IMG/VR virus record: IMGVR_UViG_3300009496_002427
Location: 1-20,753 of that record
Length of the DNA: 20,753 nucleotides
DNA from: a virus
Reading direction: 5' to 3' (one strand)
The notes under the pieces were generated by a model, which made no database searches, was not told where the DNA came from, and worked only from the letters and a program-made list of their open reading frames with translations. Below are positions 2,609-20,173 of this stretch, piece by piece. Positions within the stretch are counted from its first letter, which is position 1. Each line of letters begins with the position of its first letter. The position numbers and the translations under genes are program-made.

Positions 2609-2618
2609 TCTGACATTT

Positions 2619-2654
2619 TACCTAGGCCCTGATATTGACGTTAGGGCCTAGGTA
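2619..2654 (+). terminator. Strong hairpin between gp32 and uvsX
   Basis: TACCTAGGCCCT (2619-2630) and AGGGCCTAGGTA (2643-2654) are perfectly complementary over 12 bp around a 12-nt loop. It begins 10 nt after the gp32 stop codon. There is no T-run after it, so it is not a textbook intrinsic terminator. It could attenuate transcription, protect the 3' end of gp32 mRNA, or be an RNA-processing site. The stem is certain; its role is not. Confidence 0.7.
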
Positions 2655-2663
2655 TGCTAATAT
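2635..2663 (+). promoter_or_regulatory. Candidate uvsX promoter with its -35 box in the hairpin loop
   Basis: TTGACG (2635-2640) lies in the loop of the preceding hairpin. TAATAT (2658-2663) follows at 17 bp and is preceded by TGC, an extended -10 element. Start would be near 2670, giving a short leader with AAAGGAT (about 2674-2680) before the uvsX ATG at 2686. The -10 matches only 4 of 6 positions, so confidence is moderate. Confidence 0.4.
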
Positions 2664-2685
2664 ATGATACACAAAGGATAAAATT

Positions 2686-6202: not shown

Positions 6203-6815
6203 AGGTGAACGATTTGTAGAGAAATGTTTACAAACTGAGGTGCAGTTGCAACCATGGCCGTACCAGGTAATTGATAACACCCTGAGTAAGAATGCTTTTA
6301 CAAAGTTACAGGAAGGTTGCGATAAAAATTTAAAATTTGTTACAACAGAACTACATCATATATTTCCAGATCAATACAAAGATTGGGACATAGATTTCTA
6401 CGACGAGACCGTAGACATATGCACTAACCTGTTGAGAAATATAAAGAAACTTGTTGGAGTATATCCTGCCAGTAGATCATATGAAAAACTTGGAGTGAAC
6501 GCACACGTTTCAATTACTCCAAAGTTGCCATACAAATTCCATGTACGCCAAGAGGGACTAGAAAAAATATGGAGTTCTGTCACATACATTACACCTGAAA
6601 AAAATGTAGGGACAAAAATGTATAAGACAAATAACTCAGTATCGTTTGTTAAAGAAGCAGAATGGAAAAGGAATAGCACATTTATATTCTGTGGACAGGA
6701 GAATAAAACATGGCATTCATATGAAAGTGATCAAGATTGTAACAGGATCACATTGAATCTTTTCATACAAAAGACACGTAAAAATAAATGCTTTATGGAG
6801 TTTGCTGATCTTTAA
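6195..6815 (+). CDS. 2-oxoglutarate/Fe(II) oxygenase-like protein, metal site altered
   Basis: The 206-residue protein has the layout of phage 2OG-Fe(II) oxygenases. PYQVIDNTLSKNAF (22-35) is the typical N-terminal strand-turn. KIWSSVTYITPEKNVGTKMY (124-143) is the jelly-roll core with the GT(x)xY signature. WHSY carries the distal His (H174), and CNRITLNLF carries the Arg (R184) expected to bind 2-oxoglutarate. The usual HxD/E motif just before the core reads H116-V-R118, so the acidic iron ligand appears to be missing. Either the site uses another residue (E120 is near) or the protein is not an active oxygenase. It is the last + strand gene of this run and overlaps the convergent gene by 23 bp. 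The fold is likely; activity is uncertain. Confidence 0.7.
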   Translation: MSEGERFVEKCLQTEVQLQPWPYQVIDNTLSKNAFTKLQEGCDKNLKFVTTELHHIFPDQYKDWDIDFYDETVDICTNLLRNIKKLVGVYPASRSYEKLGVNAHVSITPKLPYKFHVRQEGLEKIWSSVTYITPEKNVGTKMYKTNNSVSFVKEAEWKRNSTFIFCGQENKTWHSYESDQDCNRITLNLFIQKTRKNKCFMEFADL

Positions 6816-7512
6816 TAAAATCCTGCAGTGCTTTGATGTCTGTATTGAGGTGTCTCTGCTTTACCTTGTCCCAAACAAAGTTATCCCTGTTATTGATGTT
6901 TAGGTGTGTACGCACTTGTTCACCCGTGTCATCGAACATCTTCTTTGCTTTAAACACAACAGTTGGCAGATAGAGACATCTTCCCAACTTACGTGCAACT
7001 TTTTGTGTGTACGAATCAACGTGCCAGTGCCAGAAGAAAGGCGGTGCTAGATATCCCAGCGTATTGATCCAGTTCTTGTGTACAGCAAAATGTGCCGCAG
7101 GCAATGGTTTGTCAGACCACAAATTAGGTTTATCCATGTTATACTTTAACGTACCTTTCATTCTTCCATCGCTGGGCACAACCATTAAGATTCTGTCTTG
7201 ATACCTGTTGAATTCGTTTACAATTATGTTGTCCCACCCTTGTGTTTGTATTTGCACATCATCACCCATGAGCATTACTATGTCATGTTTGGCCTTACGA
7301 GCCATTAGATTCCAACTGTAACAAGTGGACTGGTTTGGGCCGACTGTGTAGTGTTTCTCATCTAACAGATCTTTGTACTTTTCTAACGTGGTATCGTCTT
7401 CGTTTAGGTAGAATAAAAATTCAGTCTTACCTGTTTGTGTAGCTGTTGCTGTATCAACTAAACGTTTTGCTAAATCGGGTCTGCCTCTTGATGGTATGCA
7501 AAACGAAATCAT
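6793..7512 (-). CDS. GT-A fold glycosyltransferase, GT2-like
   Basis: The 239-residue protein starts MISFCIPSRGRPD, the first strand and loop of GT2-type transferases. It has the nucleotide/metal motif MGDDVQ with D84-D85 (residues 82-87). AAHFAVHKNW (139-148) and FFWHWHVDSYTQ (159-170) fit the acceptor-side part of the domain. No membrane segments are seen, so it is a soluble enzyme using a nucleotide sugar. It is the last gene of the six-gene minus-strand operon and its start overlaps the epimerase stop (ATGA). Its 3' end runs 23 bp into the convergent oxygenase-like gene. The sugar and acceptor are unknown. Confidence 0.85.
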   Translation of the reverse strand: MISFCIPSRGRPDLAKRLVDTATATQTGKTEFLFYLNEDDTTLEKYKDLLDEKHYTVGPNQSTCYSWNLMARKAKHDIVMLMGDDVQIQTQGWDNIIVNEFNRYQDRILMVVPSDGRMKGTLKYNMDKPNLWSDKPLPAAHFAVHKNWINTLGYLAPPFFWHWHVDSYTQKVARKLGRCLYLPTVVFKAKKMFDDTGEQVRTHLNINNRDNFVWDKVKQRHLNTDIKALQDFIKDQQTP

Positions 7513-8513
7513 ATTAATTTATTCTTCCAGGTCTCTGGAGTCTTGTCGTTTATGATCTCCAACGGTAAGTGATATTGAAATTTCTTTGTGCCTCTGGTCC
7601 TTATGTATTCTGCAGTCTTTTTGACCGACTGTCGCATGTTTGTTGCTGTGCTGTAACCTAATAGTTCTCTTGCTTTGTCTGACGAACACACCGCTAGTTT
7701 GACTTCCTTGGGTCTGTCTTTATGATGTATGGGATCTAAATTAATTCCTGTTTCATTGGCACAAGCTTCTGCTAACTCGTTGATTGTTATAGGTTCTTCG
7801 TCTGGTCCAATATTGATTACTTCTCCAATAACATTATCTTGGAATGCAAGTGCGTTCAAACAGTACAAGCAATCATCGATGTAACTGAAACACCTTTGCT
7901 GTTCTCCATCTCCGTATATGATAGGTTGTTTGCCTTGTAACATCCTGTTCAACATTATGGACATCACATTTCGGAACGGGTCATCATACTTCTGTCTTGG
8001 TCCAACGATGTTGTGTGGCACAGCGATCACATAATCTACCCCGTGTGTTTCGCATAAATTTCTCAGCACATCCTCACCGGCCTTCTTTGCGATACCATAT
8101 GGATCCTGTGGACGACACTCGTAATCTTCCTTGTACGGCATATTGTCATGGTGTCCATACCTTGCCATGCTCGAACAGTACACAATACGTTTTACCTTGT
8201 TCCTTATTGCCGCTGTGATTGTTGTGACTGACGCTTCAAAAATATTTCTCGTGACAAGCACTGGGGAGAACACAGACAGTCCTTCGTATGCAGTAGCGGC
8301 GGTGTGATACACTATGTCACAACCTTCCATTGCTTTGGTCATGTTCTCTAGATCACAACAGTCTACTTGATGGAACTCCACATCCTGTGGCACGTTGTCT
8401 GTGTACCCACCGATCATGTTGTCATTGCCGGCAACAGTGTGACCCTCTGATAGCATTAGATCTGCTAGGTGCGAACCTAAAAATCCTGCCACACCTGTTA
8501 TGAAAATCTTCAT
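7509..8513 (-). CDS. NAD-dependent epimerase/dehydratase (extended SDR, nucleotide-sugar type)
   Basis: The 334-residue protein has the usual length of nucleotide-sugar epimerases such as UDP-glucose 4-epimerase. The NAD-binding glycine motif is TGVAGFLGSH (G7, G10, G13). An Asp follows the second strand (GNDNM), suiting NAD over NADP. YHTAA (69-73) is the third nucleotide-binding segment. The catalytic residues are Ser in CSSMARYG (113-120) and Y139/K143 of the YxxxK motif. RCFSYIDDC and VINIGPDEE further on are typical of the sugar-nucleotide half. It most likely makes an activated sugar in the cytosol for the neighbouring transferases. Whether it is an epimerase, dehydratase or decarboxylase cannot be read from the sequence. 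Four bases separate it from the methyltransferase upstream. Confidence 0.9.
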   Translation of the reverse strand: MKIFITGVAGFLGSHLADLMLSEGHTVAGNDNMIGGYTDNVPQDVEFHQVDCCDLENMTKAMEGCDIVYHTAATAYEGLSVFSPVLVTRNIFEASVTTITAAIRNKVKRIVYCSSMARYGHHDNMPYKEDYECRPQDPYGIAKKAGEDVLRNLCETHGVDYVIAVPHNIVGPRQKYDDPFRNVMSIMLNRMLQGKQPIIYGDGEQQRCFSYIDDCLYCLNALAFQDNVIGEVINIGPDEEPITINELAEACANETGINLDPIHHKDRPKEVKLAVCSSDKARELLGYSTATNMRQSVKKTAEYIRTRGTKKFQYHLPLEIINDKTPETWKNKLI

Positions 8514-8517
8514 ACGT

Positions 8518-9156
8518 CTATTTACTGTTACCTTTCTTACGCCACACTACATCCGGCCAAACCTTGATCATGATTTCAAATCCAGTTTTTCTTAGATGTT
8601 TTTCAATTTCTAGATTACTGCTTCCATATTTCTTTGAATTATTATTAAGTTCTATCATTAGATAGTCAACATTTTTCAATGTATTCTCAGCACCTTTTAG
8701 CACTTCCATTTCAAAACCTTCAACATCGATCTTGATCAAATCAACATCATCGAGATCCAAACTGTCTATGGTTACCATGGGTATGATGCCATCTCCTACT
8801 ACACGTTTCGCCTGTGTGAAATTGTCTTCCGACAATGATATCATTTTTTCTTCATTGCCCACTGCGAGTTGATGTGTTTCAACATCTTCGGGACAATTCT
8901 TCACAAGGCATTCGTAATGAACGGGGTCTGGTTCAAAAGCTATCACTCTCCCACAAAACCCATTCATGGCCATCGTCCATGTGCCCACCCATGCTCCGAT
9001 GTCTAGCACATGATTGAACTTTATATCGTTACTTTTGCAGTGGGTGATAAGTTTTCCGAGACACTTGTTCTGTGTAAAATTTTTATCTTTTTTCCAATCC
9101 TCGATGTGTACATCATTTGACGGAACCCAAAATCCATTTATTTTTTCAATCGACAT
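8518..9156 (-). CDS. FkbM-family SAM-dependent methyltransferase (first copy)
   Basis: The 212-residue protein has the FkbM motif order. The SAM-binding loop is LDIGAWVG (residues 51-58). AFEPDP (73-78) ends the second strand with the acidic ribose ligand. VTIDSL (128-133) and IKIDVEGFEMEVLKGAE (141-157) are the family hallmark. FkbM enzymes typically O-methylate sugars or polyketides, so here a sugar hydroxyl is the likely target. The start overlaps the upstream SGNH hydrolase by 11 bp. A more divergent FkbM gene lies at 14130-14948 in the opposite operon. Family secure, acceptor unknown. Confidence 0.9.
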   Translation of the reverse strand: MSIEKINGFWVPSNDVHIEDWKKDKNFTQNKCLGKLITHCKSNDIKFNHVLDIGAWVGTWTMAMNGFCGRVIAFEPDPVHYECLVKNCPEDVETHQLAVGNEEKMISLSEDNFTQAKRVVGDGIIPMVTIDSLDLDDVDLIKIDVEGFEMEVLKGAENTLKNVDYLMIELNNNSKKYGSSNLEIEKHLRKTGFEIMIKVWPDVVWRKKGNSK

Positions 9157-9916
9157 TCCATATGTCCTTTACAAGAGGTTGTAGTTCAGATGCCCATGCC
9201 TTTTGTCCATACACATTTGGATGTTCGTCTAAATCCGAAACAACGAATTTCTTTTTGAGACACCAGCCATGTTGGGTTTCATTAAAACTACCTTGTAGTT
9301 TATAAAAATATTTTTGGTCCACTTTTTCCAACAGCCTTCTACACTCATTGGTTAGTGGTCTATCAAATCCATTGTGCAGTGCGTTGAACATCAAGTATGG
9401 AGTCTTGTTTAGTTTTAGAAACGACTGCATGTAGAGTATTTGCAGAGCGGTTCTGATCTGTCCATCTGCCTCCAGTGCCGGTGAGTAGTGCGTTTCTCCG
9501 TCATGTATCCATGGAGTGAATGGTAGATCCTTGTACTTGGGAGGCGATACCGGATCAACCATCTTCCATGTGTGCCAGTGTGTGTTATTACGAGAGGTTG
9601 TCAGTGCCTCACGCCTGTTCGAACTGGTAAGTCCTATCAACACAAAGGCTTTACGTAATTTAGTTTGTGGCAATTTACGTGCTATCATCTCGTTACTGAT
9701 ACCGTTCTCTGCAATTTTAAAAAAATCAACACCTAGTTTCTTGGCCAGCACTGATCCACACGTGTGAGGATACTCGGCATGTACTCCGTATTGCTTTTTA
9801 AAAGTACTTCTGTTTGTAACATTAGTCGCACGTGCACCAGATTCAATTCCCTTGATATAATCCGGGACACCATTGCCCATTGCGAAAGAACATCCAAAGT
9901 GTATTAATTTTTGCAT
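9146..9916 (-). CDS. SGNH/GDSL-like hydrolase (copy 1)
   Basis: The 256-residue protein has the SGNH block order. HFGCSFAMGNG carries the putative nucleophile S10. AENGISNEM (residues 69-77) is the Gly/Asn oxyanion region. FVLIGLTSSNRRE (91-103) is the strand holding a block III-like segment. SDLDEHPNVYGQKAWA (227-242) holds the catalytic D230/H232 pair as DxHP. Members act as esterases or acyl transferases; in glycan clusters they often add or remove O-acetyl groups. No signal peptide or membrane segment is seen, so the substrate should be cytosolic. It shares stop-start overlaps with both neighbours. A second, shorter SGNH gene lies upstream at 10703-11410. The substrate is inference. Confidence 0.75.
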   Translation of the reverse strand: MQKLIHFGCSFAMGNGVPDYIKGIESGARATNVTNRSTFKKQYGVHAEYPHTCGSVLAKKLGVDFFKIAENGISNEMIARKLPQTKLRKAFVLIGLTSSNRREALTTSRNNTHWHTWKMVDPVSPPKYKDLPFTPWIHDGETHYSPALEADGQIRTALQILYMQSFLKLNKTPYLMFNALHNGFDRPLTNECRRLLEKVDQKYFYKLQGSFNETQHGWCLKKKFVVSDLDEHPNVYGQKAWASELQPLVKDIWNVD

Positions 9917-10728
9917 TACAATATCCCCTTGTCCATTAGTATCTCAACTGCCTTACCGTTCTCAAACTCCTCCGGCGTGAACTGCTGATATGCAAGGCTG
10001 TACAACCATTCTTCAGCCCCAACAAAAAACGGATCCTCTATGTCTGCCAGTTCCTGTCCTGCAATCTCCTTGGCAAAACTCTTGTTATCAGCAATAGTCG
10101 GTATACCCATACACTGTGCTTCTATGGCCGCTATTGAACAACTTGTAACCAAACACCAGGCATCCTTCAGGTCTTCCGCCAATGGTACCTTTGCCTCACT
10201 GGGTCCTGAGGTTCCTCTGCCACGTGGTTTATACCGTATCCTTATAGGCCTGTCTGTGTATCTTTTGAGCTGTTCGATCGTTTCCTCTAACCAATTGGGT
10301 CTGTCTAAGTAGTTGTTTATGCTGTCCGAGCTCGGACACACCAGTACGTAAGATCCCTTGAAGTTTGGTGCTTTTATTTTCATACCAAACTTCTCAAATC
10401 TATCAGACTTACAGTCTCTGATGTAGCTGGCATGTATCTTGTTCCTACATATACGCCAGTAATGATTATCTGGCTTAAGATTATTATTGTCAAATCTGCC
10501 AAAGTAGGGAGTATCGGTGAACCAATATTGATGCTTACGTGCTTCCAGCTTCTTGATCATCTGCATGTTGTTGTTTACAAATCCCCAGTACATCGAATTG
10601 GGCATGGGCTCTGTTGCGATACTGTTATCAAGAATCTTCACTTGTTCGGGCCATGACTGCTTGACGCCGTCAAACACTTCCCATGCCTTGCTCTTCTTGT
10701 TGTTAAATGGTGCGTAAATCGTTAGCAT
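9916..10728 (-). CDS. GT-B-like glycan transferase, paralogue A1
   Basis: The ATG at 10728 gives 270 residues; a TTG one codon earlier is possible. It is one of four related proteins in the window. Shared features are an aromatic block (YWFTDTPYFGR, 68-78), a strand KGSYVLVCPSS (124-134), W-L-E-E-T followed by YTDRPIRIRYKP (157-168), a loop CLVTSCSIAAIEA followed by MGIPT, and a C-terminal LAYQQFTPEEF. This pattern resembles GT-B transferases of the capsule (KpsC/KpsS) or CDP-glycerol transferase type, in which RPHP followed by a Ser loop forms the donor site. Here RPHP is replaced by RYKP. The start overlaps the upstream gene by 26 bp. It is probably a cytosolic sugar or polyol-phosphate transferase; the acceptor is unknown. 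Confidence 0.7.
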   Translation of the reverse strand: MLTIYAPFNNKKSKAWEVFDGVKQSWPEQVKILDNSIATEPMPNSMYWGFVNNNMQMIKKLEARKHQYWFTDTPYFGRFDNNNLKPDNHYWRICRNKIHASYIRDCKSDRFEKFGMKIKAPNFKGSYVLVCPSSDSINNYLDRPNWLEETIEQLKRYTDRPIRIRYKPRGRGTSGPSEAKVPLAEDLKDAWCLVTSCSIAAIEAQCMGIPTIADNKSFAKEIAGQELADIEDPFFVGAEEWLYSLAYQQFTPEEFENGKAVEILMDKGIL

Positions 10729-11410
10729 CAATAAATTCCTTTAGCTGTTTTGCCCAGTCCTTATGTCCTTCAGGAGATGGGTGTATGTCTCCAGGAGAAC
10801 ATTGTTGATTATTATCTACCGTGTAATCCTTGTGTGATGTTTCTGGTCTGAAGTATCTCGTCTTGTCTATCAAGTTCCATAATGCTTTTACATCCTTGGA
10901 CTTGTGATCAATTTTAATATCAGGATCTGAGATTGTTTTGTACATCACATAAGGGTATTTTTTAATCTTGAAATAGTGCTGTAGATTCAATGTGGCCTCT
11001 ATGGACTCGTACTGTATCATCTGATCAAGATCCAATTTCATTGTAACAAAAAGATGTCGGAAAAACTTTTCAGCTTCCGCAGGCACTTGCGGCTTATATG
11101 TTTTCCATGCCGTTGCCAACTCTGGAAATTTATGTTTTTTGTATTGGTCAGTTGTAGGATAATCAAATCGCTGTCCCGATGTTATACCAATCACAAAGAA
11201 ACATTTCTCTGCCAACTCCGGGTTCTTCTCACACCAGACCTTTGTTGTTATGCTACATCTCTTGTTGCCGCGGCCTCCACCACCAAGATGTAGTGCTGTT
11301 TCCAAATTCATCAGTTTTGCCAGTTCTGCTCCAACGTGAGTGTCAACTCTTTGTTTGGGTCTTGTCGTGAGGAATGAACAGCCGTTGGTAAAAATATGAG
11401 TGGGTTGCAT
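10703..11410 (-). CDS. SGNH/GDSL-like hydrolase (copy 2)
   Basis: The 235-residue protein is the first gene of the minus-strand operon. TNGCSFL carries the putative nucleophile S12. GGGGRGNKR (43-51) is the Gly/Asn region. FFVIGITSGQRFD (71-83) corresponds to the same segment in the 9146-9916 protein. SPGDIHPSPEGHKDWA (205-220) provides the D208/H210 pair in the same DxHP spacing. The two copies are clearly related in motif order but weakly alike elsewhere, so they probably have different substrates. The ATG at 11410 lies 13 nt beyond the palindromic promoter candidate. The likely role is esterase or O-acyl transfer on a glycan intermediate; this is inference. Confidence 0.75.
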   Translation of the reverse strand: MQPTHIFTNGCSFLTTRPKQRVDTHVGAELAKLMNLETALHLGGGGRGNKRCSITTKVWCEKNPELAEKCFFVIGITSGQRFDYPTTDQYKKHKFPELATAWKTYKPQVPAEAEKFFRHLFVTMKLDLDQMIQYESIEATLNLQHYFKIKKYPYVMYKTISDPDIKIDHKSKDVKALWNLIDKTRYFRPETSHKDYTVDNNQQCSPGDIHPSPEGHKDWAKQLKEFIDANDLRTI

Positions 11411-11415
11411 AATAA

Positions 11416-11429
11416 TATAATTAATTATA
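11416..11429. promoter_or_regulatory. Palindromic bidirectional promoter candidate between divergent operons
   Basis: TATAATTAATTATA is a perfect 14-bp palindrome in the 33-bp gap between the minus-strand operon (start 11410) and the + strand operon (start 11444). Each strand reads TATAATTA, one base from the T4 late consensus TATAAATA and with a perfect sigma70 -10 hexamer. No convincing -35 box is found at 17 bp on either side, which favours a late-type promoter. One element could thus serve both operons. Confidence 0.55.
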
Positions 11430-11443
11430 CACTAAAGACATCC

Positions 11444-12538
11444 ATGGCGCAACTTGTAAAAAATATTACCAGCATAAAGTATTTCTTGGACAGACATGAT
11501 ATCATAGACAATTCCTATGATATCAACATGCAATATCATCCAACTGTACCAAACAAGTTCACCAGCAATCCAACATTCGTGGCGGAATTTAACAACTGTT
11601 CCGTGAACAGTTTACCAATTTTGATCACCGAGGATAGACACATGATCACAGAACACCTGTGGTCCATGCTGGATCGTTACAAGAACAAACCAAACAAGCA
11701 TCACGGAATGTGGCACTCGTGGGGTGAGGAGATCAACATCGAGATGCCACCAGTGACCAAACAGTTTGATGGAACAAACAAGTATGTTTGGTTGCCAATA
11801 GACAAACACAGCACAGGCAATCCATGGCACATATGGATTGATGTTATCAGTAAGTTTAGGCTAATGGAAAAAAGGTGGTCCACTAATTTTACAAAATACA
11901 TTTACATACTAGCTAACCCTAGTCCATACTTTGACAAGGTGGCAAAAGAATTATTCCCCAACTTAAAATATTATGTGATGCCGGAGGGAGAGACTTGGAG
12001 ATTCCAACATCTACTGGCACCATCTATGAGCAACTGCAATGACGGGGTTGTCACACCACACTTGCCGCCATGGCTACGTCACTTCAAGGGATCGTTTGGA
12101 ATACCAGAGAATCAGCAACCATTTAGGAAAATATTTGTATCACGTGACAAAGCACACACCAGGAAATTAAACAATGCCAGCGAACTTTTGATGGCACTTA
12201 AAGGATGGGAGTCTGTAACACTTGAGGACCTGCCAATAAAAGAACAAGTCAAAGTGTTTGCAGAAGCATCACATGTCCTAGCAACACACGGAGCAGGTAT
12301 GGTCAATGCCCTGTGGTGTAGAGAAGGAACAAAGATAGTAGAGATACAAGACGAGAGGATGTTACACAAAAAAGTGTATCCGTTGCTATCAAACAGCTTG
12401 AAACTGAAGCACGAAGTTTTTGTTGCAAAGACAACGCCAATAGCAACAGATGGTAAAAAACCAAAGGGTGTGAAAAGACGAAATGATCTAATCAATTTTG
12501 ACGTTGACGTTCCTAAATTAATTAGACATTTAGACTGA
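11444..12538 (+). CDS. GT61-family (DUF563-like) glycosyltransferase
   Basis: I chose ATG 11444 (364 residues). An in-frame ATG at 11396 would lie upstream of the promoter candidate and inside the divergent gene. The C-terminal half carries the GT61 signature: RKIFVSRDKAHTRKL (228-241), then ESVTLEDLPIKEQVKVFAEA (256-275), then LATHGAGMVNALWCREGTKI (279-298), and finally VEI. The THGAG motif near a Glu/Ile-rich strand is the donor-binding region. The N-terminal half contains many aromatics and His and should form the acceptor domain. No membrane segment is seen. It heads the nine-gene + strand operon; the gap to the next gene is 19 bp. Family assignment is strong, sugar specificity unknown. 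Confidence 0.88.
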   Translation: MAQLVKNITSIKYFLDRHDIIDNSYDINMQYHPTVPNKFTSNPTFVAEFNNCSVNSLPILITEDRHMITEHLWSMLDRYKNKPNKHHGMWHSWGEEINIEMPPVTKQFDGTNKYVWLPIDKHSTGNPWHIWIDVISKFRLMEKRWSTNFTKYIYILANPSPYFDKVAKELFPNLKYYVMPEGETWRFQHLLAPSMSNCNDGVVTPHLPPWLRHFKGSFGIPENQQPFRKIFVSRDKAHTRKLNNASELLMALKGWESVTLEDLPIKEQVKVFAEASHVLATHGAGMVNALWCREGTKIVEIQDERMLHKKVYPLLSNSLKLKHEVFVAKTTPIATDGKKPKGVKRRNDLINFDVDVPKLIRHLD

Positions 12539-12557
12539 TATCATTTATAATATAACC

Positions 12558-13325
12558 ATGTATTCATTGTTACAGAAAAAACCAACAGTACAGACAGATC
12601 CCTACCCACATGTGATCATAGAGGAGGCCTTACCATGGGATCTCTACGAGGCACTGGAAAACAGTTTTCCGGAAGGCATGGTCATGCAAAAACACAATGC
12701 CTACGACAATGGAATCTGTTTTAGGCTGAAAGCAGATAAACTACTGGATCCAACAGGTAGTGTGCCCGGAGTATGGAAAGAATTCACACGTTATCACACA
12801 TCTGCAGAATGGTTCAACGAAGTGAATGAGCTTTTCAGACCTTATATGCCAAGTGTCCTACACAAAACATTCACAGAGGATGATTTGGGTGCAAGGGGTT
12901 GGGCGGACGAAAATAAAAACATATGGACTGATTGTCAATTGGTCATGCACAGACCCATAGAAGAAATAACCACACGTACACCTCACATAGACAATCCAAT
13001 GGAGATGTGGGCAGGATTGTTGTACATGCCATGTCCAAACGATCAAAGCACAGGTGGAGAATTCCAAATTTACTCGACACAGTCCAGTGTGCAGAAAGTT
13101 GACAAGAAAGCAGGAAGGCAAATTTACGACAGTGATCTCGGCACGGTGATCAAGACAATACCTTACAAGAGGAACACGTTTGTGATGTTTGCAAACAATT
13201 CACCAAACACTGTACACGGTGTATCTCTGAGGCAAGATGCAACACTCAACAGGAGAAGTGTCAACATCATTGGAGAATTCAAAAGAGGCTACGCAACAAT
13301 GTACAACGTACAGGAAGTGAAATAA
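12558..13325 (+). CDS. 2-oxoglutarate/Fe(II)-dependent oxygenase (intact metal site)
   Basis: The 255-residue protein starts with PYPHVIIEEALPWDLYEAL (residues 15-33), the N-terminal element common in phage 2OG oxygenases. The iron-binding facial triad is complete: H143 and D145 in TPHIDNP, and H220 in NTVHGVSLR. An Arg pair (R232-R233) near NIIGEF can bind 2-oxoglutarate. GGEF (166-169) lies in the core strand. Related phage proteins are annotated as prolyl-4-hydroxylase-like. In this setting it may hydroxylate a sugar, lipid or protein acceptor in the cytosol. Its stop overlaps the next start (TAATG). It contrasts with the 6195-6815 protein, whose acidic ligand is lost. The substrate is unknown. 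Confidence 0.85.
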   Translation: MYSLLQKKPTVQTDPYPHVIIEEALPWDLYEALENSFPEGMVMQKHNAYDNGICFRLKADKLLDPTGSVPGVWKEFTRYHTSAEWFNEVNELFRPYMPSVLHKTFTEDDLGARGWADENKNIWTDCQLVMHRPIEEITTRTPHIDNPMEMWAGLLYMPCPNDQSTGGEFQIYSTQSSVQKVDKKAGRQIYDSDLGTVIKTIPYKRNTFVMFANNSPNTVHGVSLRQDATLNRRSVNIIGEFKRGYATMYNVQEVK

Positions 13326-14140
13326 TGAACTACGCTGTGAGGACCGAAAGGGCCAACACTGAAAAATATGTTGAGAGTGCGTCGAGGGGTATGGCAAACT
13401 GTAAACTCACTAACTACGAGACAGTGTTAAGCACGACCAACTTTGATAAAGTTGTGTTCATGGGGGTGTTACGTGGTACCCATTTGGTTTACAAACATTG
13501 TCAAAACAATAAAAAAGATTTCTATTACATAGACAGACCTTACTGGGGAGAAAGCAGGGCAACCCCTTACTGGATGAGGTGTGTGAAGAATCAACATGTC
13601 AAGACATTCGTTGATCACAGGCCAGATGATAGATTCAAACAACAGTTCAAAGACCCCATAACACCTTTCCACAAGAATGGATCGTATGTGTTGGTGGTAC
13701 CACCAAGCCATGCCATGGCAGAGATGTTTGACGGCAAGGACTGGCTAGACAACACAATGAAAGTATTAAAAGAGAACACAGACAGAGAGATTATTGTGAG
13801 AGAGAAACCTTACAATCCCAAGGCAGTGATAGACGGAGAGGGAAAAATGATTCCTGGCACAAGTGCAAACAACAAACCACCTAAGCCATTTGAATGGGAC
13901 AGGGTACATGCTGTTGTGACCTTCAACAGTTCTATATCGATCAAGGCACTAACTAACGGCGTTCCTGCATTTGCCAACTTTGACAATCCTTGTATGCCCG
14001 TTTGCGAACAGGACTTCTCAAAGATAGAAACCCCGAGATACGAGGATCCAAGACCTGTGTTGAACAGTCTTGCCTACAACCAATTCACACAGGATGAATT
14101 CAGGAGCGGATACTACATGGAGATTCTAGATGGCAGATAA
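13325..14140 (+). CDS. GT-B-like glycan transferase, paralogue A2
   Basis: This 271-residue protein is the closest relative of the 9916-10728 protein. Both have an aromatic block (FYYIDRPYWGE, 66-76), YW-R/M-x-C shortly after, DDRF (101-104), NGSYVLVVPPS (118-128), WLDNTMKVLKENTDREIIVREKP (within 140-162), AVVTFNSSISIKA with NGVPAF, and LAYNQFTQDEF at the C terminus. The donor-site motif is REKP where two other family members have RPHP. The A1/A2 pair thus forms a subgroup with Lys before Pro. It is cytosolic by sequence and is directly followed by an FkbM-type gene with an 11-bp overlap. It is probably a glycosyl or polyol-phosphate transferase; the exact reaction is not readable. Confidence 0.7.
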   Translation: MNYAVRTERANTEKYVESASRGMANCKLTNYETVLSTTNFDKVVFMGVLRGTHLVYKHCQNNKKDFYYIDRPYWGESRATPYWMRCVKNQHVKTFVDHRPDDRFKQQFKDPITPFHKNGSYVLVVPPSHAMAEMFDGKDWLDNTMKVLKENTDREIIVREKPYNPKAVIDGEGKMIPGTSANNKPPKPFEWDRVHAVVTFNSSISIKALTNGVPAFANFDNPCMPVCEQDFSKIETPRYEDPRPVLNSLAYNQFTQDEFRSGYYMEILDGR

Positions 14141-14948
14141 GATTAAACCTCACACGGTCGAGAGAGTAAAGAAAATAAGAGCGTGGGAACTAAAGAACAA
14201 TTACAGCGAAGCCCAACACATCAAAGGGTTCAAGAAATACAAAAATTATTTTGTGCCGGAGACCATTGTGAAAAGTAGTAAGACTGTTTTAAGTTTTGGT
14301 GTTGGCGGCAATGTTGGGTTTGAAAAGGAAATAGCATTTGACAACACAGATTTACAAATTGAATTGTTTGACCCCACTCCCAGGAGCGTGACCCTTATAG
14401 ATGACATTATAAAGGCATCTAGCCACAAGCTGATAGCAAAAAGATCTGACCACACAGAAAACATACAGGCCTGCAAAAGAATACATTTTAATCCAGTCGC
14501 ATACAGCAAGGAGAACGGAACGCTACCTTTCTACTTTGACCCCTCACGTGAGGAACAGAATATCACAAAGGCAGTACAGGCCAAACAAAGCTTCTCGCTA
14601 GTAAAAAAATACGAACACTACAAATCAGTAGACGTAGAAACTAAAAATTTAAAAACAATAATGAGAGAACTTGACTTGTCTAAGGTTGACATGCTCAAAG
14701 CAGACATAGAAGGACTCTGGTGGGAGTTTGGCAACGAAGTGTTAGACAATAAAATTGATTGTAAGTTTGTGGCAATTGAACTTGAATTAAACTTTGAGGA
14801 AGGTGAGAAGATAGAGCCAGCACTAGACAAGGCACAACTGCTGTGTGACAGATTTAAAGCAAACAACTATGATGTTGTCATCAACAGGAGACGAGACAAG
14901 CTGATGTTGGAAATGCTTTTCATAAGGAAAGATGCATATGAAAGTTGA
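14130..14948 (+). CDS. FkbM-like SAM-dependent methyltransferase (divergent second copy)
   Basis: The 272-residue protein keeps the FkbM plan with changes. FGVGGNVG (56-63) is the SAM loop, where Gly replaces the usual Asp/Ile start. ELFDPTPRSV (78-87) ends the second strand. NPVAYSKENGTLPFY (121-135) and VDMLKADIEGLWWEF (186-200) match the family hallmark, with KADIEG for KIDVEG. An N-terminal extension of about 50 basic residues precedes the domain. It overlaps the gene on each side (11 bp both times). It should methylate a sugar or related small group; whether activity is retained with the altered SAM loop is uncertain. The pairing with A2 mirrors the A1/FkbM group in the opposite operon. 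Confidence 0.8.
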   Translation: MADKIKPHTVERVKKIRAWELKNNYSEAQHIKGFKKYKNYFVPETIVKSSKTVLSFGVGGNVGFEKEIAFDNTDLQIELFDPTPRSVTLIDDIIKASSHKLIAKRSDHTENIQACKRIHFNPVAYSKENGTLPFYFDPSREEQNITKAVQAKQSFSLVKKYEHYKSVDVETKNLKTIMRELDLSKVDMLKADIEGLWWEFGNEVLDNKIDCKFVAIELELNFEEGEKIEPALDKAQLLCDRFKANNYDVVINRRRDKLMLEMLFIRKDAYES

Positions 14949-15921
14949 GATATTTAGAAGGACAGTAAAGGACAGACGTAGGGGTGCCAGTTGGGATCTG
15001 TTACAACACATGGCCACGGGTATAAGGGCATGTGGCGATGAACCTGTTATTGTCAATGAAAACAAAGTTGGTCCATGGGATAAAAATGAGATGGAGCCCA
15101 CTGCACCTATCGGTTGCATGTTTGGATATGGCGGTACTAATCAAATGCATCACACCAAAGGGAGAAGAAGAGATCTAGTGGAACGTGCCAAGAAGAAAGG
15201 CATACACATAATAACATTTGACGGTGGAATACTTTCTAGCTTTGGCAACACTATAACTGATCCAAATCATCACTGGCGTGTAGCACTGTACTCACCCATG
15301 AACAACGGAAACTTCCTGAGCGACAACAGTCCTCCTGACAGATGGCAACGTATGAAAAAGCTATGGAACATAAACTATGCCCCATGGAGAAAGTCAAACC
15401 AAGATGATCCAATACTGTTTGTGCTACAACCACAGGACAACTGGAGCATGAACGAACTAGATCCCATCAAGTGGTTCAATGATGTGTATGATAAACTGAG
15501 ACCCGCTACCGACAGGAAATTCATAGTGAGGCCACATCCTAACCATGTTGCCGCAATGGAGAAAAGAATAGATGAATTCCCCGCAGATGTACAGGTGGTG
15601 ATAGGACAGAAATTTTTCAAGGGAGATGAGAAAAAGCATTACAGATTCAATTACCAAGACGCATTAAATAATTGTCATGCTGTTGTTACTCACAATTCTA
15701 CTGCCTGCATCGACTCTTGCGTTCGTGGAATACCTACCTTTTGTACCTCAGATCTTGCACTCGCTTGGCCTGTAGCAAACAAAGATCTTAATAATATAGA
15801 AACACCAGAATATCCTGACAGGGATCAGTGGGTGTACGATCTCGGATACAAACAATGGACAGAGGCAGAGATAAAAGATGGTACCGTATTCAAGAGATTT
15901 AAAAAGAAATTAGGATTATAA
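14938..15921 (+). CDS. GT-B-like glycan transferase, paralogue A3
   Basis: ATG 14938 (327 residues) is preferred over ATG 14932: it leaves 9 nt after AAGGA and aligns with the MKV start of the 18540 protein. Motifs in order: MFGYGGTNQMHH (61-72) and IITFDGG (91-97), which look like the end of an N-terminal Rossmann half; LFVLQPQDNWS (160-170); ATDRKFIVRPHPN (190-202) with an intact RPHP; CHAVVTHNSTACID followed by RGIPTF (246-268); and LGYKQWTEAE near the C terminus. RPHP plus the Ser/Thr loop is the feature of capsule and CDP-glycerol-type transferases. It lies between the FkbM-like gene and asnB. Donor and acceptor are unknown. Confidence 0.75.
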   Translation: MKVEIFRRTVKDRRRGASWDLLQHMATGIRACGDEPVIVNENKVGPWDKNEMEPTAPIGCMFGYGGTNQMHHTKGRRRDLVERAKKKGIHIITFDGGILSSFGNTITDPNHHWRVALYSPMNNGNFLSDNSPPDRWQRMKKLWNINYAPWRKSNQDDPILFVLQPQDNWSMNELDPIKWFNDVYDKLRPATDRKFIVRPHPNHVAAMEKRIDEFPADVQVVIGQKFFKGDEKKHYRFNYQDALNNCHAVVTHNSTACIDSCVRGIPTFCTSDLALAWPVANKDLNNIETPEYPDRDQWVYDLGYKQWTEAEIKDGTVFKRFKKKLGL

Positions 15922-15922
15922 T

Positions 15923-17677
15923 ATGTGTGGCATTTATGGAATAACAGCAAAGGATCCAGAGTTTATACAAAGCTTCATAGATATTTGTAAGCACAGAGGA
16001 CCAGATGGAGAAAGTGTTTGGACATCTGACACAGTAACTTTAGGACACAATCTTTTAAGTATAATGGCATCACCGGACCAGTCACAACAGCCGTGGAAGA
16101 CACCCAAGGGCAACATGCTTGTGTATAATGGGGAAATATTCAACTATTACGAATTAAAACAGAAACACACAAACTTTGTGGACACGACAGGATGTGACAC
16201 AGAATTACTTGCATGGGGATTAGATACATTTGGTTTAAACTTTATTGATGAGATAGATTCAATGCATGGTTTCGCATACTACGAAGTGGCCAAAAAACAA
16301 ATCACTCTGAGTAGGGATCATGCCGGTATCAAACCTGTGTACTATGCAGAAATAGACCAAGGACTAGTGTTTGGATCCGAGATAAAAGGCATGCTTGATA
16401 AAGTTCCGGGCTCACACACAGTTGATAAACTGGCCATGAGTTGCCTTGCATACACGGGGATCAATGCCACACGTAACACTTGTTTTAGTGGGATAAAAAA
16501 ACTGTTGGCTGGTGAGACTAAAGTTTACAACATAGCAAATAAAAAATTTATAGAAACAAAAAGAATATTCATAAAGCCAACAAGCGATCATTACTTTGCT
16601 CCTATTGAGTTTAAGAAAATGGCAAAGAAGACTGTGGAGATGTGTAGCATAGGACAAAGGAAGATAGGTGTGTTCTTAAGTGGTGGTCTAGATTCAAGTC
16701 TAATTGCACATGAGCTAAACAAATTAAAAAAGCCTGCTGTAACATTTACGAATATGATGAGACCAAATATCGTAACAGAGGAAGATTTCAATAGCGATGC
16801 GAATGCGGCCGGGGAGCTGGCAAAGGTAGAAGGCTATCAACACCTGGTGGTTAAAGTCACACCAGATACTGTCGTAAACAGTTGGAATGATTCAATATAC
16901 TACATGGAGCAACCCATGTACAACCAGAGTGTTGCCATGTACTACTACACGAACAAAGTTCTGCACGACAACAGTATAGTGGTCACAATGGCCGGCGACA
17001 TGGGGGACGAAATACTGGGCGGATATCCCAAGTACTGGAAACTAAAGCAGGCAGAATATCTTGAAAGAATGATTGGCAAGAAACAAATAGAATCGTGGGA
17101 CGATGTGTTAACATTATGGATGCAGAGAATTAAACGTCCACTGGCAGGATTCATGATGGGTGGTACCCTCTCAAAGAAAGATGTATTTGAAGAACTAAAG
17201 AAATGTTATCCGGATGACTTGTGGAATCCCAAAGATCCTGTAGCTTCTTACATGGCACTGGACTGTGTCACACAGGTACCGGAGGAGTTCTTTATGAGAA
17301 ATGATAAATTTGGAATGGCATTTGGCATGGAAGGCAGATTCCCTTTGGCAACAAAGATGTTTATGCAGTACTGCATGAGTATACCTAGTTTCCAAAAAAT
17401 TGGGATTGAAAAATTTCAAACAAAATTGCCTACTAAAAGAGCCTATGAAAATGTATTGCCAGAGATAATAATTAAAAAGGAAAAAACAGGTTGGACAGTG
17501 CCGCTGGGCTATTGGTTAGCAAAAGGCCGAAGCACAAGGCTAACTGATTTTTACAACAATGCATTAAAAGATAAGGGCGGCCTGGGTATTATAAAGGCCA
17601 GTGCCAAAGCAGGGAAGTCGTTGGTGCCATCGTGGATAGTAAGTGATTGGATAAAAAAATATAAAATGAAAATATGA
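15923..17677 (+). CDS. asnB: Asparagine synthase-type glutamine amidotransferase
   Basis: The 584-residue protein has the full AsnB architecture. The N-terminal glutaminase domain has the nucleophile Cys2 (MCGIYG), HRGPDGE (24-30), NGEIFN (69-74) and CDTE (91-94). The synthase domain has the ATP-pyrophosphatase loop FLSGGLDSS (251-259) and a later GDMGDEILGGY segment. It uses glutamine and ATP to amidate a carboxylate. In free metabolism that makes asparagine. In O-antigen clusters AsnB homologues make sugar uronamides or amidate aminoacyl groups, which would fit its place between two GT-B-like/GT-A genes here. The ATG cannot lie further downstream because Cys2 must be exposed after Met removal. 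The stop overlaps the next gene (ATGA). Family secure; substrate open. Confidence 0.92.
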   Translation: MCGIYGITAKDPEFIQSFIDICKHRGPDGESVWTSDTVTLGHNLLSIMASPDQSQQPWKTPKGNMLVYNGEIFNYYELKQKHTNFVDTTGCDTELLAWGLDTFGLNFIDEIDSMHGFAYYEVAKKQITLSRDHAGIKPVYYAEIDQGLVFGSEIKGMLDKVPGSHTVDKLAMSCLAYTGINATRNTCFSGIKKLLAGETKVYNIANKKFIETKRIFIKPTSDHYFAPIEFKKMAKKTVEMCSIGQRKIGVFLSGGLDSSLIAHELNKLKKPAVTFTNMMRPNIVTEEDFNSDANAAGELAKVEGYQHLVVKVTPDTVVNSWNDSIYYMEQPMYNQSVAMYYYTNKVLHDNSIVVTMAGDMGDEILGGYPKYWKLKQAEYLERMIGKKQIESWDDVLTLWMQRIKRPLAGFMMGGTLSKKDVFEELKKCYPDDLWNPKDPVASYMALDCVTQVPEEFFMRNDKFGMAFGMEGRFPLATKMFMQYCMSIPSFQKIGIEKFQTKLPTKRAYENVLPEIIIKKEKTGWTVPLGYWLAKGRSTRLTDFYNNALKDKGGLGIIKASAKAGKSLVPSWIVSDWIKKYKMKI

Positions 17678-18543
17678 GATACAAAGTAATAACAACATTC
17701 AAACCTGGTGATTGGGACAGATACGCAAGACGCATGGTGCAGTCTGTTATAGACCGATGGCCCGACGTTGACCTCACAGTATACTACGAAGGGCAAGGAC
17801 CGTATTTCGATCACCAAAGAGTCACATGGGTAGACATAGACAAAGCAAACCCAAAACTGCATAAGTTTAGAGAGCATTACAAAAACGATCCTGTGGCCAT
17901 GGGCAAACTTGATGAGATCCCGGGCGGTGTGAGACGTTCGGCTAGGCTTGCGACAGAGGGTGGTCTCGATGCAAAGAAAGAATCATACCTGTGGAACGCT
18001 GTTAAGTTCAGTTACAAGGTATCCTGTGTTACACACGCAGTCAAGACGTATACCGATTACGATTACGTGATATGGATAGATGACGATACATACACATTCC
18101 GAGATATACCTATGCAATTCATAGAAAGCATATGTCCTAACGATACACTGGTAACATACCTAGACAGAGAAAATGATCGTGGCAGTAACAAATATCCAGA
18201 GTGTGGACTGGTATGTTACAACATGAAACACAAATTGATACAAAATTTTGTTAACGACTGGGAACAACTTTACACGTCGGCTGATATATTCAAACTGTTG
18301 GAATGGCATGATTCATATGTGTTCTGGCACCTGACAAAGGAATACAGGCAGAAGCATTCAGCAAAAGTACACGACATAGGATATTCAAAAGGTGTAAAAG
18401 GACATCATGTGTTTGTAAACAGCGAGCTCGGACAATACATAGATCACTTCAAGGGTGATCGAAAAAGGGCTAGAAGTTCCAAGGGAGAAGACATCAGGAA
18501 GACACCAGACATGCAAAAGATCGACTACTGGAGTAAGAAATGA
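17674..18543 (+). CDS. GT-A fold glycosyltransferase-like protein
   Basis: The 289-residue protein begins with the strand YKVITTFKPGDWDRY. It holds a DxD-type motif in VIWIDDDTYTF (residues 132-142, D136-D138), preceded by YTDYDYV as in GT-A enzymes that use nucleotide sugars. YPECGLVCYNM (174-184) and EWHDSYVFWHL (210-220) resemble the conserved acceptor-side blocks of phage and eukaryote-like GT-A transferases. GHHVFVN and QYIDHFKGDRK near the C terminus supply the usual His. No signal peptide or membrane segment is seen. Both ends share ATGA overlaps with neighbours, so it is translationally coupled to asnB and A4. The GT-A class is likely; the numbered family is not assigned. Confidence 0.8.
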   Translation: MRYKVITTFKPGDWDRYARRMVQSVIDRWPDVDLTVYYEGQGPYFDHQRVTWVDIDKANPKLHKFREHYKNDPVAMGKLDEIPGGVRRSARLATEGGLDAKKESYLWNAVKFSYKVSCVTHAVKTYTDYDYVIWIDDDTYTFRDIPMQFIESICPNDTLVTYLDRENDRGSNKYPECGLVCYNMKHKLIQNFVNDWEQLYTSADIFKLLEWHDSYVFWHLTKEYRQKHSAKVHDIGYSKGVKGHHVFVNSELGQYIDHFKGDRKRARSSKGEDIRKTPDMQKIDYWSKK

Positions 18544-19412
18544 AAGTAAGTTGCTTTACAGATCATGGACCACTGAACTCCAAACCTGTGTTCGAGGCGT
18601 TTATAAAAAGTATGAGGCAGGCCGGAGACACTGTGTTTGAGAACAAGGACGACGGACAGTGTGACGTGGCAGTGATATGGTCAGTGCTGTGGCAGGGCAG
18701 GATGGCCAAGTATCGTAACATATGGGACACTTACAGGAAAAAAAATAAACCTGTTGTTGTGCTAGAAGTAGGTGGCATAAAAAGAAATGAGACTTGGAAG
18801 ATAGGAATCAATGGTATAAACAGAGAAGCCGACTTCCACAATGACAACGTGGGAGGAGAACGTTGGGGGAAATTTAATGTGGAACTGAAGCCATGGAAGC
18901 AGACGGGCGAAGACATAATCATTTGTGGACAACACACCAACAGTCATCAATGGAGGAACAATCCACCGATGTCGGCATGGTTCGATCGACAGATCACGGA
19001 GATCAGGAAGTACACGGACAAGCCCATCATCATCAGGCCGCATCCTAGGAATCACGTTGCAATAGACACTACAAAATACAAGGATGTAAAAATAGTAGGA
19101 CCTAAAAGGGATAGGAACACATACGACGACACAGACCTTGCAGAGAGATTGAAGTCAGCATGGGCAGTGGTCAGCCATTCAAGCAACCCTGCCATGACGG
19201 CAGTGTTCTCAGGCATACCTGTTTATGTTTCTGAGGCCAGCCTGAGCTACGACGTTGGTAATAAAACATTTGAAAACATCAACAATCCTGACATGCCTGA
19301 TAGACAAAACTGGGCAAACAAGCTATCATACACTGAATGGTGGACAGATGAAATAGAGCGGGGACTGCCATGGAAGAGAATTAGAAAGAGACTGGAGGAG
19401 AAATATCTATAA
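18540..19412 (+). CDS. GT-B-like glycan transferase, paralogue A4
   Basis: The 290-residue protein is the fourth member of the paralogous family. It starts MKVSCFTDHG, has DVAVIWSVL (42-50) and VVVLEVGGIKRN (72-83) in the N-terminal half, then EDIIICGQHTNSHQW (124-138), KYTDKPIIIRPHPR (157-170) with intact RPHP, SAWAVVSHSSNPAMTA followed by SGIPVY (207-229), and LSYTEWWTDEIERG near the C terminus. It pairs best with the 14938 protein in motif content, since both keep RPHP and a free EVGG/FDGG segment. It begins inside the preceding stop (ATGA) and ends inside the next start (TAATG). It is likely a cytosolic glycosyl or polyol-phosphate transferase. Confidence 0.75.
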   Translation: MKVSCFTDHGPLNSKPVFEAFIKSMRQAGDTVFENKDDGQCDVAVIWSVLWQGRMAKYRNIWDTYRKKNKPVVVLEVGGIKRNETWKIGINGINREADFHNDNVGGERWGKFNVELKPWKQTGEDIIICGQHTNSHQWRNNPPMSAWFDRQITEIRKYTDKPIIIRPHPRNHVAIDTTKYKDVKIVGPKRDRNTYDDTDLAERLKSAWAVVSHSSNPAMTAVFSGIPVYVSEASLSYDVGNKTFENINNPDMPDRQNWANKLSYTEWWTDEIERGLPWKRIRKRLEEKYL

Positions 19413-20173
19413 TGACTATTTTAAGAAACTTGCCTGGTGCAAGACAATCGTTGGATCCCATTGAATGGAAACCCTACGAGGGAGAGACAGTCAACACACA
19501 CCTAACAATACGTAAGGGAAAGAAGATCCAGGAGACTGCCTACTATGAGGACCGAGTCAAGGCAGTGCCACGTGGCAATGCATACTGCATAGGAAATGGT
19601 CCTTCACGTAAAGGATTTGATCTTAACAGATTGAAGGCAACAGGACAGACGTATGGATGTAATGCACTGTACAGAGATTTCATTCCTGACTTTATTTTTT
19701 CAATAGACTCACCGGTGACATTAGAAATGGTCAAAGAGAAAGTTTATGAGAAGTGTATACACTACACCCCCTCGCTGGAAGTCAATCGTTATCCAAAGGG
19801 TGGCCCATCACACCTACACCTGATCCCAAACAATCCACACTGGATATGTGGTAACCAGGCCATATGGACAGCGGGTGTCCATGGACACAAGAACATATAT
19901 CTACTGGGATTTGACTTTAGGGAGTTTGGCAAGGATCAATTGAACAACATCTACCAAGGCACAGAGAACTACGGCGAGAGACACAACGACACAGTGTTCT
20001 CTGGTTGGCTGAAACAGTTTCGTGACATGTTGAAGCTAAGACCATATGTCAACTACATCATGGTACACGACAACCCACCGGAGTATATGCACAACGTACA
20101 GACAGGCACCGACTTAGGCAACAGTAAAATTATAAGTTACAAAGAGTTTGAAAAGGTATTAGCACCTAGCTAA
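19412..20173 (+). CDS. GT42 sialyltransferase / DUF115-like Rossmann protein
   Basis: The 253-residue protein has the motif order of GT42 sialyltransferases and related DUF115 proteins. CIGNGPSRKGFDLNRLK (59-75) is the nucleotide-binding loop. TYGCNALYRDF (80-90) matches the CN-x-x-Y segment. ICGNQAIWTAGVHGHKNIYLLGFDF (within 145-169) matches the region that in Campylobacter Cst-type enzymes precedes the IYLxGIDF strand. H191, in the ERHND segment shortly after, stands where the catalytic His of those enzymes would fall. An N-terminal stretch of about 50 residues is extra. The upstream GGAGGAG before the ATG is a good ribosome-binding site. It ends the operon, overlapping the convergent gene by 15 bp. 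The donor could be CMP-activated, but no CMP-sugar synthase is in the window. Confidence 0.65.
   Translation: MTILRNLPGARQSLDPIEWKPYEGETVNTHLTIRKGKKIQETAYYEDRVKAVPRGNAYCIGNGPSRKGFDLNRLKATGQTYGCNALYRDFIPDFIFSIDSPVTLEMVKEKVYEKCIHYTPSLEVNRYPKGGPSHLHLIPNNPHWICGNQAIWTAGVHGHKNIYLLGFDFREFGKDQLNNIYQGTENYGERHNDTVFSGWLKQFRDMLKLRPYVNYIMVHDNPPEYMHNVQTGTDLGNSKIISYKEFEKVLAPS

Follow-up and report, generated by a model that had tools for sequence, protein, structure and literature searches.

The retaining glycosyltransferases KpsC, WbbB and KrkA are the best documented enzymes of their class that form a covalent sugar-enzyme adduct, and their origin has been called unclear (PMC10148158). The roles of their QXXXD, (K/R)xHP and Glu base motifs have been described (PMC12887879, PMC10148158, PMC9587256). 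Among marine phages, pelagimyophages and jumbo cyanophages are known to carry islands in which transferases, methyltransferases and 2OG oxygenases, some of them paralogous, lie together, and the accessible parts of these descriptions mention no KpsC-like family (PMC7029224, PMC7824862). Our literature search, which covered mainly papers outside subscription journals, turned up no description of a KpsC-like family encoded by phages.

Here we analysed a window of 20,753 nucleotides from the record of a marine virus of bacteria (IMGVR_UViG_3300009496_002427, positions 1 to 20,753), in which the original prediction had recognised four paralogous GT-B-like proteins, termed here P1 to P4 (Table 1). 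The four open reading frames lie where they had been placed, in agreement with the ORF listing. Positions 10728 and 14938 are internal ATGs, and the frames open one TTG (P1) or two codons (P3) earlier. The predicted starts are nevertheless reasonable because most P3 orthologues begin at the second Met (query residues 3-329). A search for a fifth family member in the window found none.

Table 1. Positions of the four paralogues, two P3 motifs and the neighbouring island genes in the window.
Feature	Positions	Strand	Remarks
GT-A-like glycosyltransferase	5085..5756	+	in phage Mosig and Caulobacter phages its homologue lies next to family members
Glycosyltransferase family 2-like	6793..7512	-	Pfam E 8e-5, just under cut-off
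NAD-dependent sugar epimerase/dehydratase	7509..8513	-	Pfam
FkbM methyltransferase	8518..9156	-	Pfam
DUF6071-like, possibly SGNH hydrolase	9146..9916	-	sub-threshold 2e-4; SGNH read from sequence
P1, GT-B glycosyltransferase-like	9916..10728	-	270 aa (271 from TTG at 10731)
Second SGNH-like protein, common module member	10703..11410	-	module synteny; putative function
GT61 glycosyltransferase	11396..12538	+	Pfam E 7e-19
2OG-Fe(II) oxygenase-like, accessory	12558..13325	+	Pfam/PHROG and synteny
P2	13325..14140	+	271 aa; closest paralogue P1
Second FkbM methyltransferase, accessory	14130..14948	+	Pfam and synteny
P3	14932..15921	+	329 aa (327 from ATG at 14938)
P3 codons 166-170, Q-P-Q-D-N, nucleophile-motif site	15427..15441	+	register from sequences
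P3 codons 200-203, R-P-H-P, CMP-phosphate motif of Kdo transferases	15529..15540	+	motif conserved in clade
Asparagine-synthetase-type amidotransferase, accessory	15923..17677	+	Pfam and synteny
GT-A-like (from sequence reading), module core	17674..18543	+	synteny; Pfam without match
P4, GT-B-like family member	18540..19412	+	290 aa
MptE/DUF115-like or sialyltransferase-like, module core	19412..20173	+	Pfam/PHROG and synteny

The ordered sequence blocks on which the paralogy had been proposed are confirmed. Each of the six pairs shows significant similarity, both by blastp (E values of 3e-26 for P1-P2, 2e-27 for P3-P4, 1e-19 for P1-P4, 6e-14 for P2-P3, 1e-12 for P1-P3 and 1e-8 for P2-P4) and by profile-profile comparison (probability 98.6-100%, E 8e-16 to 2e-40), which supports that P1 to P4 are paralogues whose likeness is not due to chance. 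The TDR or TDK block is followed by RYKP in P1, REKP in P2 and RPHP in both P3 and P4. The Ser loop and the GIP/GVP of the next block are present as described, but P1 reads CLVT where AVVT had been stated. The C-terminal blocks read LAYQQFTPEE, LAYNQFTQDE, LGYKQWTEAE and LSYTEWWTDE in P1, P2, P3 and P4, respectively. Pfam and PHROG scans assigned none of the four to a family.

AlphaFold models were built for P1 and P3 (pLDDT 91.0 and 90.6), while the folds of P2 and P4 were placed by homology. The two confident models and the fold searches agree on a GT-B-like fold and, rather than showing different folds, share one modified GT-B fold, that of KpsC, WbbB and KrkA, which extends to P2 and P4 via homology. 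KpsC and WbbB, two retaining beta-Kdo transferases, are the best matches of both models among solved structures. The P3 model matched KpsC best (6mgd_A, VIA Z 14.5, rmsd 3.7, 242 residues), with Kdo transferases at Z 12.8-14.5 and the following group at 11.2. The top match of the P1 model was also KpsC (6mgc, Z 11.5, rmsd 4.9, 228 residues), with KpsC/WbbB at Z 10.1-11.5 and the following rows at 8.3. These matches are remote, with 10-13% identity and rmsd of 3.7-4.9. Proteins of Tetraselmis virus 1 whose annotation is capsule polysaccharide biosynthesis also matched the P1 model. A profile search against PDB sequences yielded nothing beyond chance matches (E 0.4 and above).

At the sequence level, the link from the P1-P4 clades to KpsC, as read from the profiles, runs via intermediates. 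The direct profile match of these clades to KpsC was not significant (probability 0.1-5%). The profile of the relatives carrying QXXXD, however, matched rhizobial KpsC-type modules, cut around their own QxxxD/HP, at E 4e-5 with QXXXD, HP and the Ser loop in register. Capsule_synth (PF05159), the Pfam family of KpsC/KpsS, belongs to the same fold group and has a distant profile link to P1-P4 through intermediates; it had no match in P1-P4 even at E 1, nor any match in two large marine records and phage Mosig. The putative glycosyltransferase family DUF6716 (PF20471) weakly matched about 35 residues over the Ser-loop region of P1 and P3 (E 0.018 and 0.006; 14.5 and 16.1 bits, below the curated cut-off of 27), and was matched by 7/23 members of set A1.

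The active-site signatures are nearly fixed inside each clade and differ among the four clades. At the QXXXD site, P1 has CPSSDS (clade PSSxx), P2 PPSHA (clade PP[ST]xx), P3 QPQDN (clade QPxDN) and P4 QHTNS (clade QHxxS). QXXXD with its Asp nucleophile is thus missing in all four clades, P3 having an invariant Asn at the position of the Asp, where a reading shifted by one residue may apply. The HP residue is Lys in the P1 (36/36) and P2 (37/37) clades, and His in the P3 (27/27) and P4 (25/25) clades. At the putative base position, equated with KpsC Glu66 by reading of the motif, the P1, P2 and P3 clades have Asp (Asp73, Asp70 and Asp97), and P4 has Glu76 (Glu in 25/25). QXXXD together with RPHP was read in twelve outside relatives (L118, L120-122, L128-132 and L134-136), among them a fifth copy (L120) that belongs to marine phage records which also hold the quartet. 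Because QXXXD is missing from P1-P4, Kdo chemistry cannot be assumed for them. An ancestor bearing QXXXD is a state that we infer, since the family members of Mosig and Caulobacter phages also lack the motif.

P3, and perhaps P4, might instead be ordinary retaining transferases of Kdo or another CMP-nonulosonate, with the nucleophile of P3 shifted by one residue to Asp169 and only P1 and P2 changed in chemistry. Asp169 and Asn170 are both invariant in the P3 clade (27/27 each), RPHP is retained, and the top fold matches of P3 are Kdo transferases. However, QPQDN lies in ungapped register with QVPQD of L118, as read from the sequences, and Asn170, not Asp169, falls at the nucleophile position because the strand-Gln-Ser(+2) stretch aligns gap-free to the QXXXD proteins. 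For P4, only 15/25 members have an Asp at the closest acidic position, and the P4 of the window has Thr there. We therefore consider this alternative unlikely and favour altered sites in all four copies.

All 16 of the 16 marine viral records tested hold the four clades, with one copy each per contig, and three of them carry an additional fifth, divergent copy. With dN/dS of 0.035-0.32 where computable, the quartet is an old module under purifying selection. Decay to pseudogenes is ruled out by dN/dS well below 1 together with invariant motifs, and a recent duplication by the four clades with a single copy each per contig. The expansion was not a recent burst, as the quartet is older than the split among all the marine contigs sampled. 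The proposed duplication, taken as an event within phages, is supported for P1 and P2. In the tree of the family with Pelagibacter phage Mosig, P1 and P2 group together (98/93), the two Mosig proteins split one per side, and the two genes are adjacent in divergent contigs, supporting a P1/P2 duplication that predates the split from Mosig. For P3 and P4, which may have arisen in phages or been acquired, the data point neither way (AU test for one clade of all four with Mosig, p = 0.13).

What could be the acceptor of these enzymes? One possibility is that the island remodels a host surface glycan, LPS or capsule, and thereby blocks superinfection, as the reports on pelagimyophage and cyanophage transferase islands propose (PMC7029224, PMC7824862). 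An Agrobacterium vitis relative located close to GT25 and GT4 genes would fit this idea. On the other hand, no island product has a membrane segment, and among the island genes we recognised no flippase, no polymerase and no enzyme that starts synthesis on a lipid phosphate. Moreover, relatives in a podovirus, a prophage and Caulobacter phages adjoin tail, terminase or capsid genes, a gene neighbourhood that makes capsid or tail proteins candidate acceptors. We consider host-glycan remodelling rather improbable. Glycosylation of phage DNA, instead of protein or lipid, by P1-P4 is very improbable: virus-encoded transferases that add diverse glycans to DNA are known (cited in PMC12619734), but no gene for base hydroxymethylation or another modified nucleotide was recognised within the window.

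We thus prefer to see P1-P4 as four soluble glycosyltransferases of one family with the fold of KpsC (GT107), WbbB (GT99) and KrkA (GT140). The site of the family ancestor was probably of the double-displacement type, with a Glu base beside the QXXXD nucleophile and the (K/R)xHP motif for phosphate. An old duplication in phages would have given rise to P1 and P2, the QXXXD Asp would have been lost in each copy in its own way (QxxDN, QxxxS, PSSxx and PP[ST]xx), and the HP histidine would have become Lys in P1 and P2. As the QXXXD and HP residues are altered copy by copy, each copy probably has a separate donor or mechanism, and, with active sites specific to each clade, the substrates or linkages are likely to differ. 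P3 and P4 may retain CMP-type sugars, presumably supplied by the host; no CMP-sugar synthetase (PF02348) is encoded in 12 phage records. For P1 and P2, nucleotide-diphosphate sugars are possible donors. In concert with the GT61, GT2-like and further transferases, the epimerase, the FkbM methyltransferases and the amidotransferase, the four proteins could assemble a decorated oligosaccharide on an acceptor in the cytoplasm, a phage protein being somewhat more likely than an exported polymer. Most likely, the copies are soluble glycosyltransferases that differ in donor or linkage and make a methylated, possibly amidated glycan, to which each might plausibly add one residue, as first suggested. 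We regard this explanation as a whole, with altered sites on a Kdo-transferase fold, as reasonably probable. More tentatively, and with clearly less confidence, the four paralogues may have separately dismantled the nucleophile of the KpsC/WbbB fold for other chemistry, by single-step retention or inversion and with another nucleotide class in P1/P2, while relatives keep the ancestral site.

Natural members of the family occur at several degrees of divergence, part of them retaining the complete site and four lineages lacking it, all under purifying selection, so that the rise or loss of the mechanism becomes directly testable and the quartet offers a natural experiment on changes of chemistry in such enzymes. 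Our analysis also assigns a widespread set of unannotated marine phage genes to a family, and does the same for an island whose gene core is fixed.

Compared with the pelagimyophage and jumbo cyanophage islands, the locus shares the clustering of transferases, methyltransferases and 2OG oxygenases in marine myophages but differs in location, lying between the UvsX side and SprT rather than between VrlC and gp14. Compared with KpsC, WbbB and KrkA, the four window clades differ by having no QXXXD, by Lys in place of the HP histidine in P1 and P2, by Asp in place of Glu at the putative base position in P1-P3, and by the lack of a significant direct sequence or Pfam match. They resemble these enzymes in the RPHP motif and Ser loop of P3 and P4, in the Glu at the candidate KpsC-type base position of P4, and in the QXXXD motif kept by their twelve outside relatives.

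The four proteins P1 to P4 are genuine paralogues and form a conserved family that has the fold of Kdo transferases and departs from the catalytic site in a copy-specific manner; their donors, mechanism and acceptor are what we infer. All four open reading frames were found where the original prediction had placed them, and the proposed paralogy was borne out by significant similarity in all six pairs (blastp E 1e-8 to 2e-27) and by profile similarity among the four clades (hhalign probability 98.6-100%, E 8e-16 to 2e-40). The models of P1 and P3 have one fold, in agreement with the predicted GT-B-like fold. No PHROG or Pfam model matched P1 to P4 above threshold, and no further family member was found among the other open reading frames of the window, an IMG/VR virus record of 20,753 bases.

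Coordinates of the features discussed, with the outside relatives bearing QXXXD and RPHP (L numbers denote other loci or records)
Feature	Record	Coordinates	Strand	Remark
gp32 and UvsX genes	window	1628-3783		
GT_5085	window	5085..5756	+	GT-A-like glycosyltransferase gene
P1	window	9916..10728	-	
SGNH-like gene	window	10703		
phrog_274-matching protein	window	12558-13325		
P2	window	13325..14140	+	
P3	window	14932..15921	+	
GT-like gene	window	17674		
P4	window	18540..19412	+	
Fifth copy	L120	5769-6704		QXXXD, RPHP
Fifth copy	L121	654-1589		QXXXD, RPHP
Fifth copy	L122	769-1728		QXXXD, RPHP
Relative	L118			podovirus; QXXXD, RPHP
Relative	L128			planctomycete; QXXXD, RPHP
Relative	L129			Rhodospirillaceae; QXXXD, RPHP
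Relatives	L130, L131			MED657; QXXXD, RPHP
Relatives	L132, L134-136			rhizobial; QXXXD, RPHP
Member pair	L156	near 7650-9200		prophage-like region

Each of the four proteins forms one clade in a 130-protein tree and again in a careful tree of 42. The predicted expansion by duplication held for P1 and P2, which are joined with support of 98/93. Of the two proteins in Pelagibacter phage Mosig, one groups with P1 (98/86) and the other with P2 (99/97), so the P1/P2 duplication predates the split between the two phage lineages, even if the long Mosig branches make the exact attachment point less certain than the support values suggest. Adjacent P1 and P2 genes on the same strand in the most divergent contigs (L036 and L127) are as expected for a tandem duplication. 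For P3 and P4, duplication within phages is one possibility: they lie among bacterial and other phage relatives in a branching order that lacks resolution, and the AU test rejected neither a single group of all four with Mosig (p = 0.13) nor one of P3 and P4 (p = 0.42). Whatever the origin of P3 and P4, the expansion is old. All four genes are maintained, with orthologue dN/dS of 0.035-0.32 in pairs without synonymous saturation; most remaining pairs are saturated at synonymous sites and have low dN.

Family members occur at more than 100 viral loci, and all 16 marine records searched (largest 196 kb) carry the P1 to P4 types once each in a single cluster. The module is bordered on its UvsX side by uvsX, a HAD-like gene and GT_5085, and on the other by an SprT gene. 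P1, GT61, P2, P3, the GT-like gene at 17674, P4 and a DUF115-like gene are its most constant genes; the SGNH-like gene is present in most modules, the AsnB, 2OG oxygenase and FkbM genes are variably present, and gene order and orientation are altered in divergent contigs. A fifth, divergent copy with QXXXD and RPHP retained stands outside the island in three marine phage records. Caulobacter phages carry one or two members and a podovirus one, and single or paired members occur in Agrobacterium vitis, Allorhizobium, a Rhodospirillaceae genome and a planctomycete. Bacteria rarely carry the family: among 385 sampled genomes of one bacterial class, 8 had a match, several of them weak. Members or the entire phage module also appear in MAGs of Verrucomicrobia TMED56, Pelagibacter and Rickettsiales MED657 (L125, L126, L127 and L130), most likely phage contigs binned into bacterial MAGs. 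The window itself probably derives from a marine relative of jumbo T4-like phages, because its gp32 (49% to Pseudomonas PA5oct-type phages) and UvsX (68% to Sinorhizobium phage Phosso and Agrobacterium phage Atu_ph07) are nearest to these and not to cyanophages.

The neighbouring genes encode GT61, GT2-like and other GT-like proteins, a sugar epimerase/dehydratase, two FkbM methyltransferases, a 2OG oxygenase and a glutamine amidotransferase. The protein at 12558-13325 matches phrog_274 (E 1e-7), which carries the label DNA endonuclease V, and, below threshold, Pfam 2OG-Fe(II) oxygenase; the endonuclease label looks wrong. Relatives of GT_5085 directly adjoin family members in Mosig and Caulobacter phages, a transferase pair thus recurring across unrelated phages. 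Stepwise glycan assembly on a soluble acceptor is favoured: none of the island's products has a membrane-like segment, and the island showed no recognisable flippase, polymerase or initiating lipid transferase. Gene neighbourhoods of relatives hint at virion proteins as acceptor: downstream of tail and upstream of lysis genes in Caulobacter phages, near terminase and portal genes in the podovirus, and beside HK97-type capsid and prohead protease genes in the L156 prophage. The hint is tempered because late-expressed cargo of any sort would show the same neighbourhoods. Remodelling of the host surface by the island is a serious alternative; PMC7029224 and PMC7824862 propose it for comparable islands of marine phages. 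A search of 12 phage records for a CMP-sugar synthetase (PF02348) gave none, so any CMP-sugars used would come from the host.

The models of P1 (pLDDT 91.0, pTM 0.87) and P3 (pLDDT 90.6, pTM 0.88) are confident, and both had the retaining beta-Kdo transferases KpsC, WbbB and KrkA as top solved-structure matches. P3 matched these (VIA) at Z 12.8-14.5 (top 6mgd_A, rmsd 3.7 over 242 residues), followed by UDP-GlcNAc 2-epimerases from Z 11.2 at rmsd ~7. P1 reached Z 10.1-11.5 with KpsC and WbbB, and 8.2-8.3 with KrkA, equal to the next GT-B proteins. In the viral library, the P1 model matched other phage proteins, a CcrColossus protein and several proteins of Tetraselmis virus 1, of which two carry the annotation capsule polysaccharide biosynthesis.

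In the Kdo transferases of this group, the nucleophile is the Asp of QXXXD, (K/R)xHP contacts the CMP phosphate and a Glu is the base (PMC12887879, PMC10148158, PMC9587256). The nucleophile site reads PSSxx in P1, PP[ST]xx in P2, QPxDN in P3 and QHxxS in P4. Judged from sequence, absence of the nucleophile is firm for P1 and P2 and well grounded for P4. The commonest P4 reading, QHDAS, also fits an alignment in which two residues are deleted and the Asp is kept, but that Asp is present in only 15/25 members and is Thr in the window protein. The nucleophile may be missing in P3 as well, where D169 and N170 are each conserved in 27/27 and the register was taken from the ungapped stretch ILFVLQPQDNWS versus IVLCGQVPQDAS, as automatic alignment shifts P3 there. 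The HP residue is Lys in P1 (36/36) and P2 (37/37) and His in P3 (27/27) and P4 (25/25); the base position is invariably Asp in P1, P2 and P3 and Glu in P4, and the loop Ser (P3 S256) is invariant across the four clades.

QXXXD and RPHP were present in 12/12 outside relatives listed, representing about five independent lineages, as L130 and L131 are mutually close and so are the A. vitis entries. The bacterial relatives were retrieved with patterns built on RPHP and the Ser loop rather than on QXXXD, which makes their QXXXD a separate observation. Members of Mosig and Caulobacter phages and two alphaproteobacterial pairs lack a clean QXXXD; the loss is thus not unique to the window lineage, and an ancestral QXXXD is accordingly something we infer. 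The L156 pair, in an alphaproteobacterial genome, comprises adjacent HP-type and KP-like members. A profile of the QXXXD relatives matched KpsC-type modules of rhizobia with E 4e-5 at 70% probability, a somewhat favourable comparison as the modules were trimmed around their own QxxxD/HP, and the QXXXD, HP and Ser loop all fell in register with those of the KpsC type.
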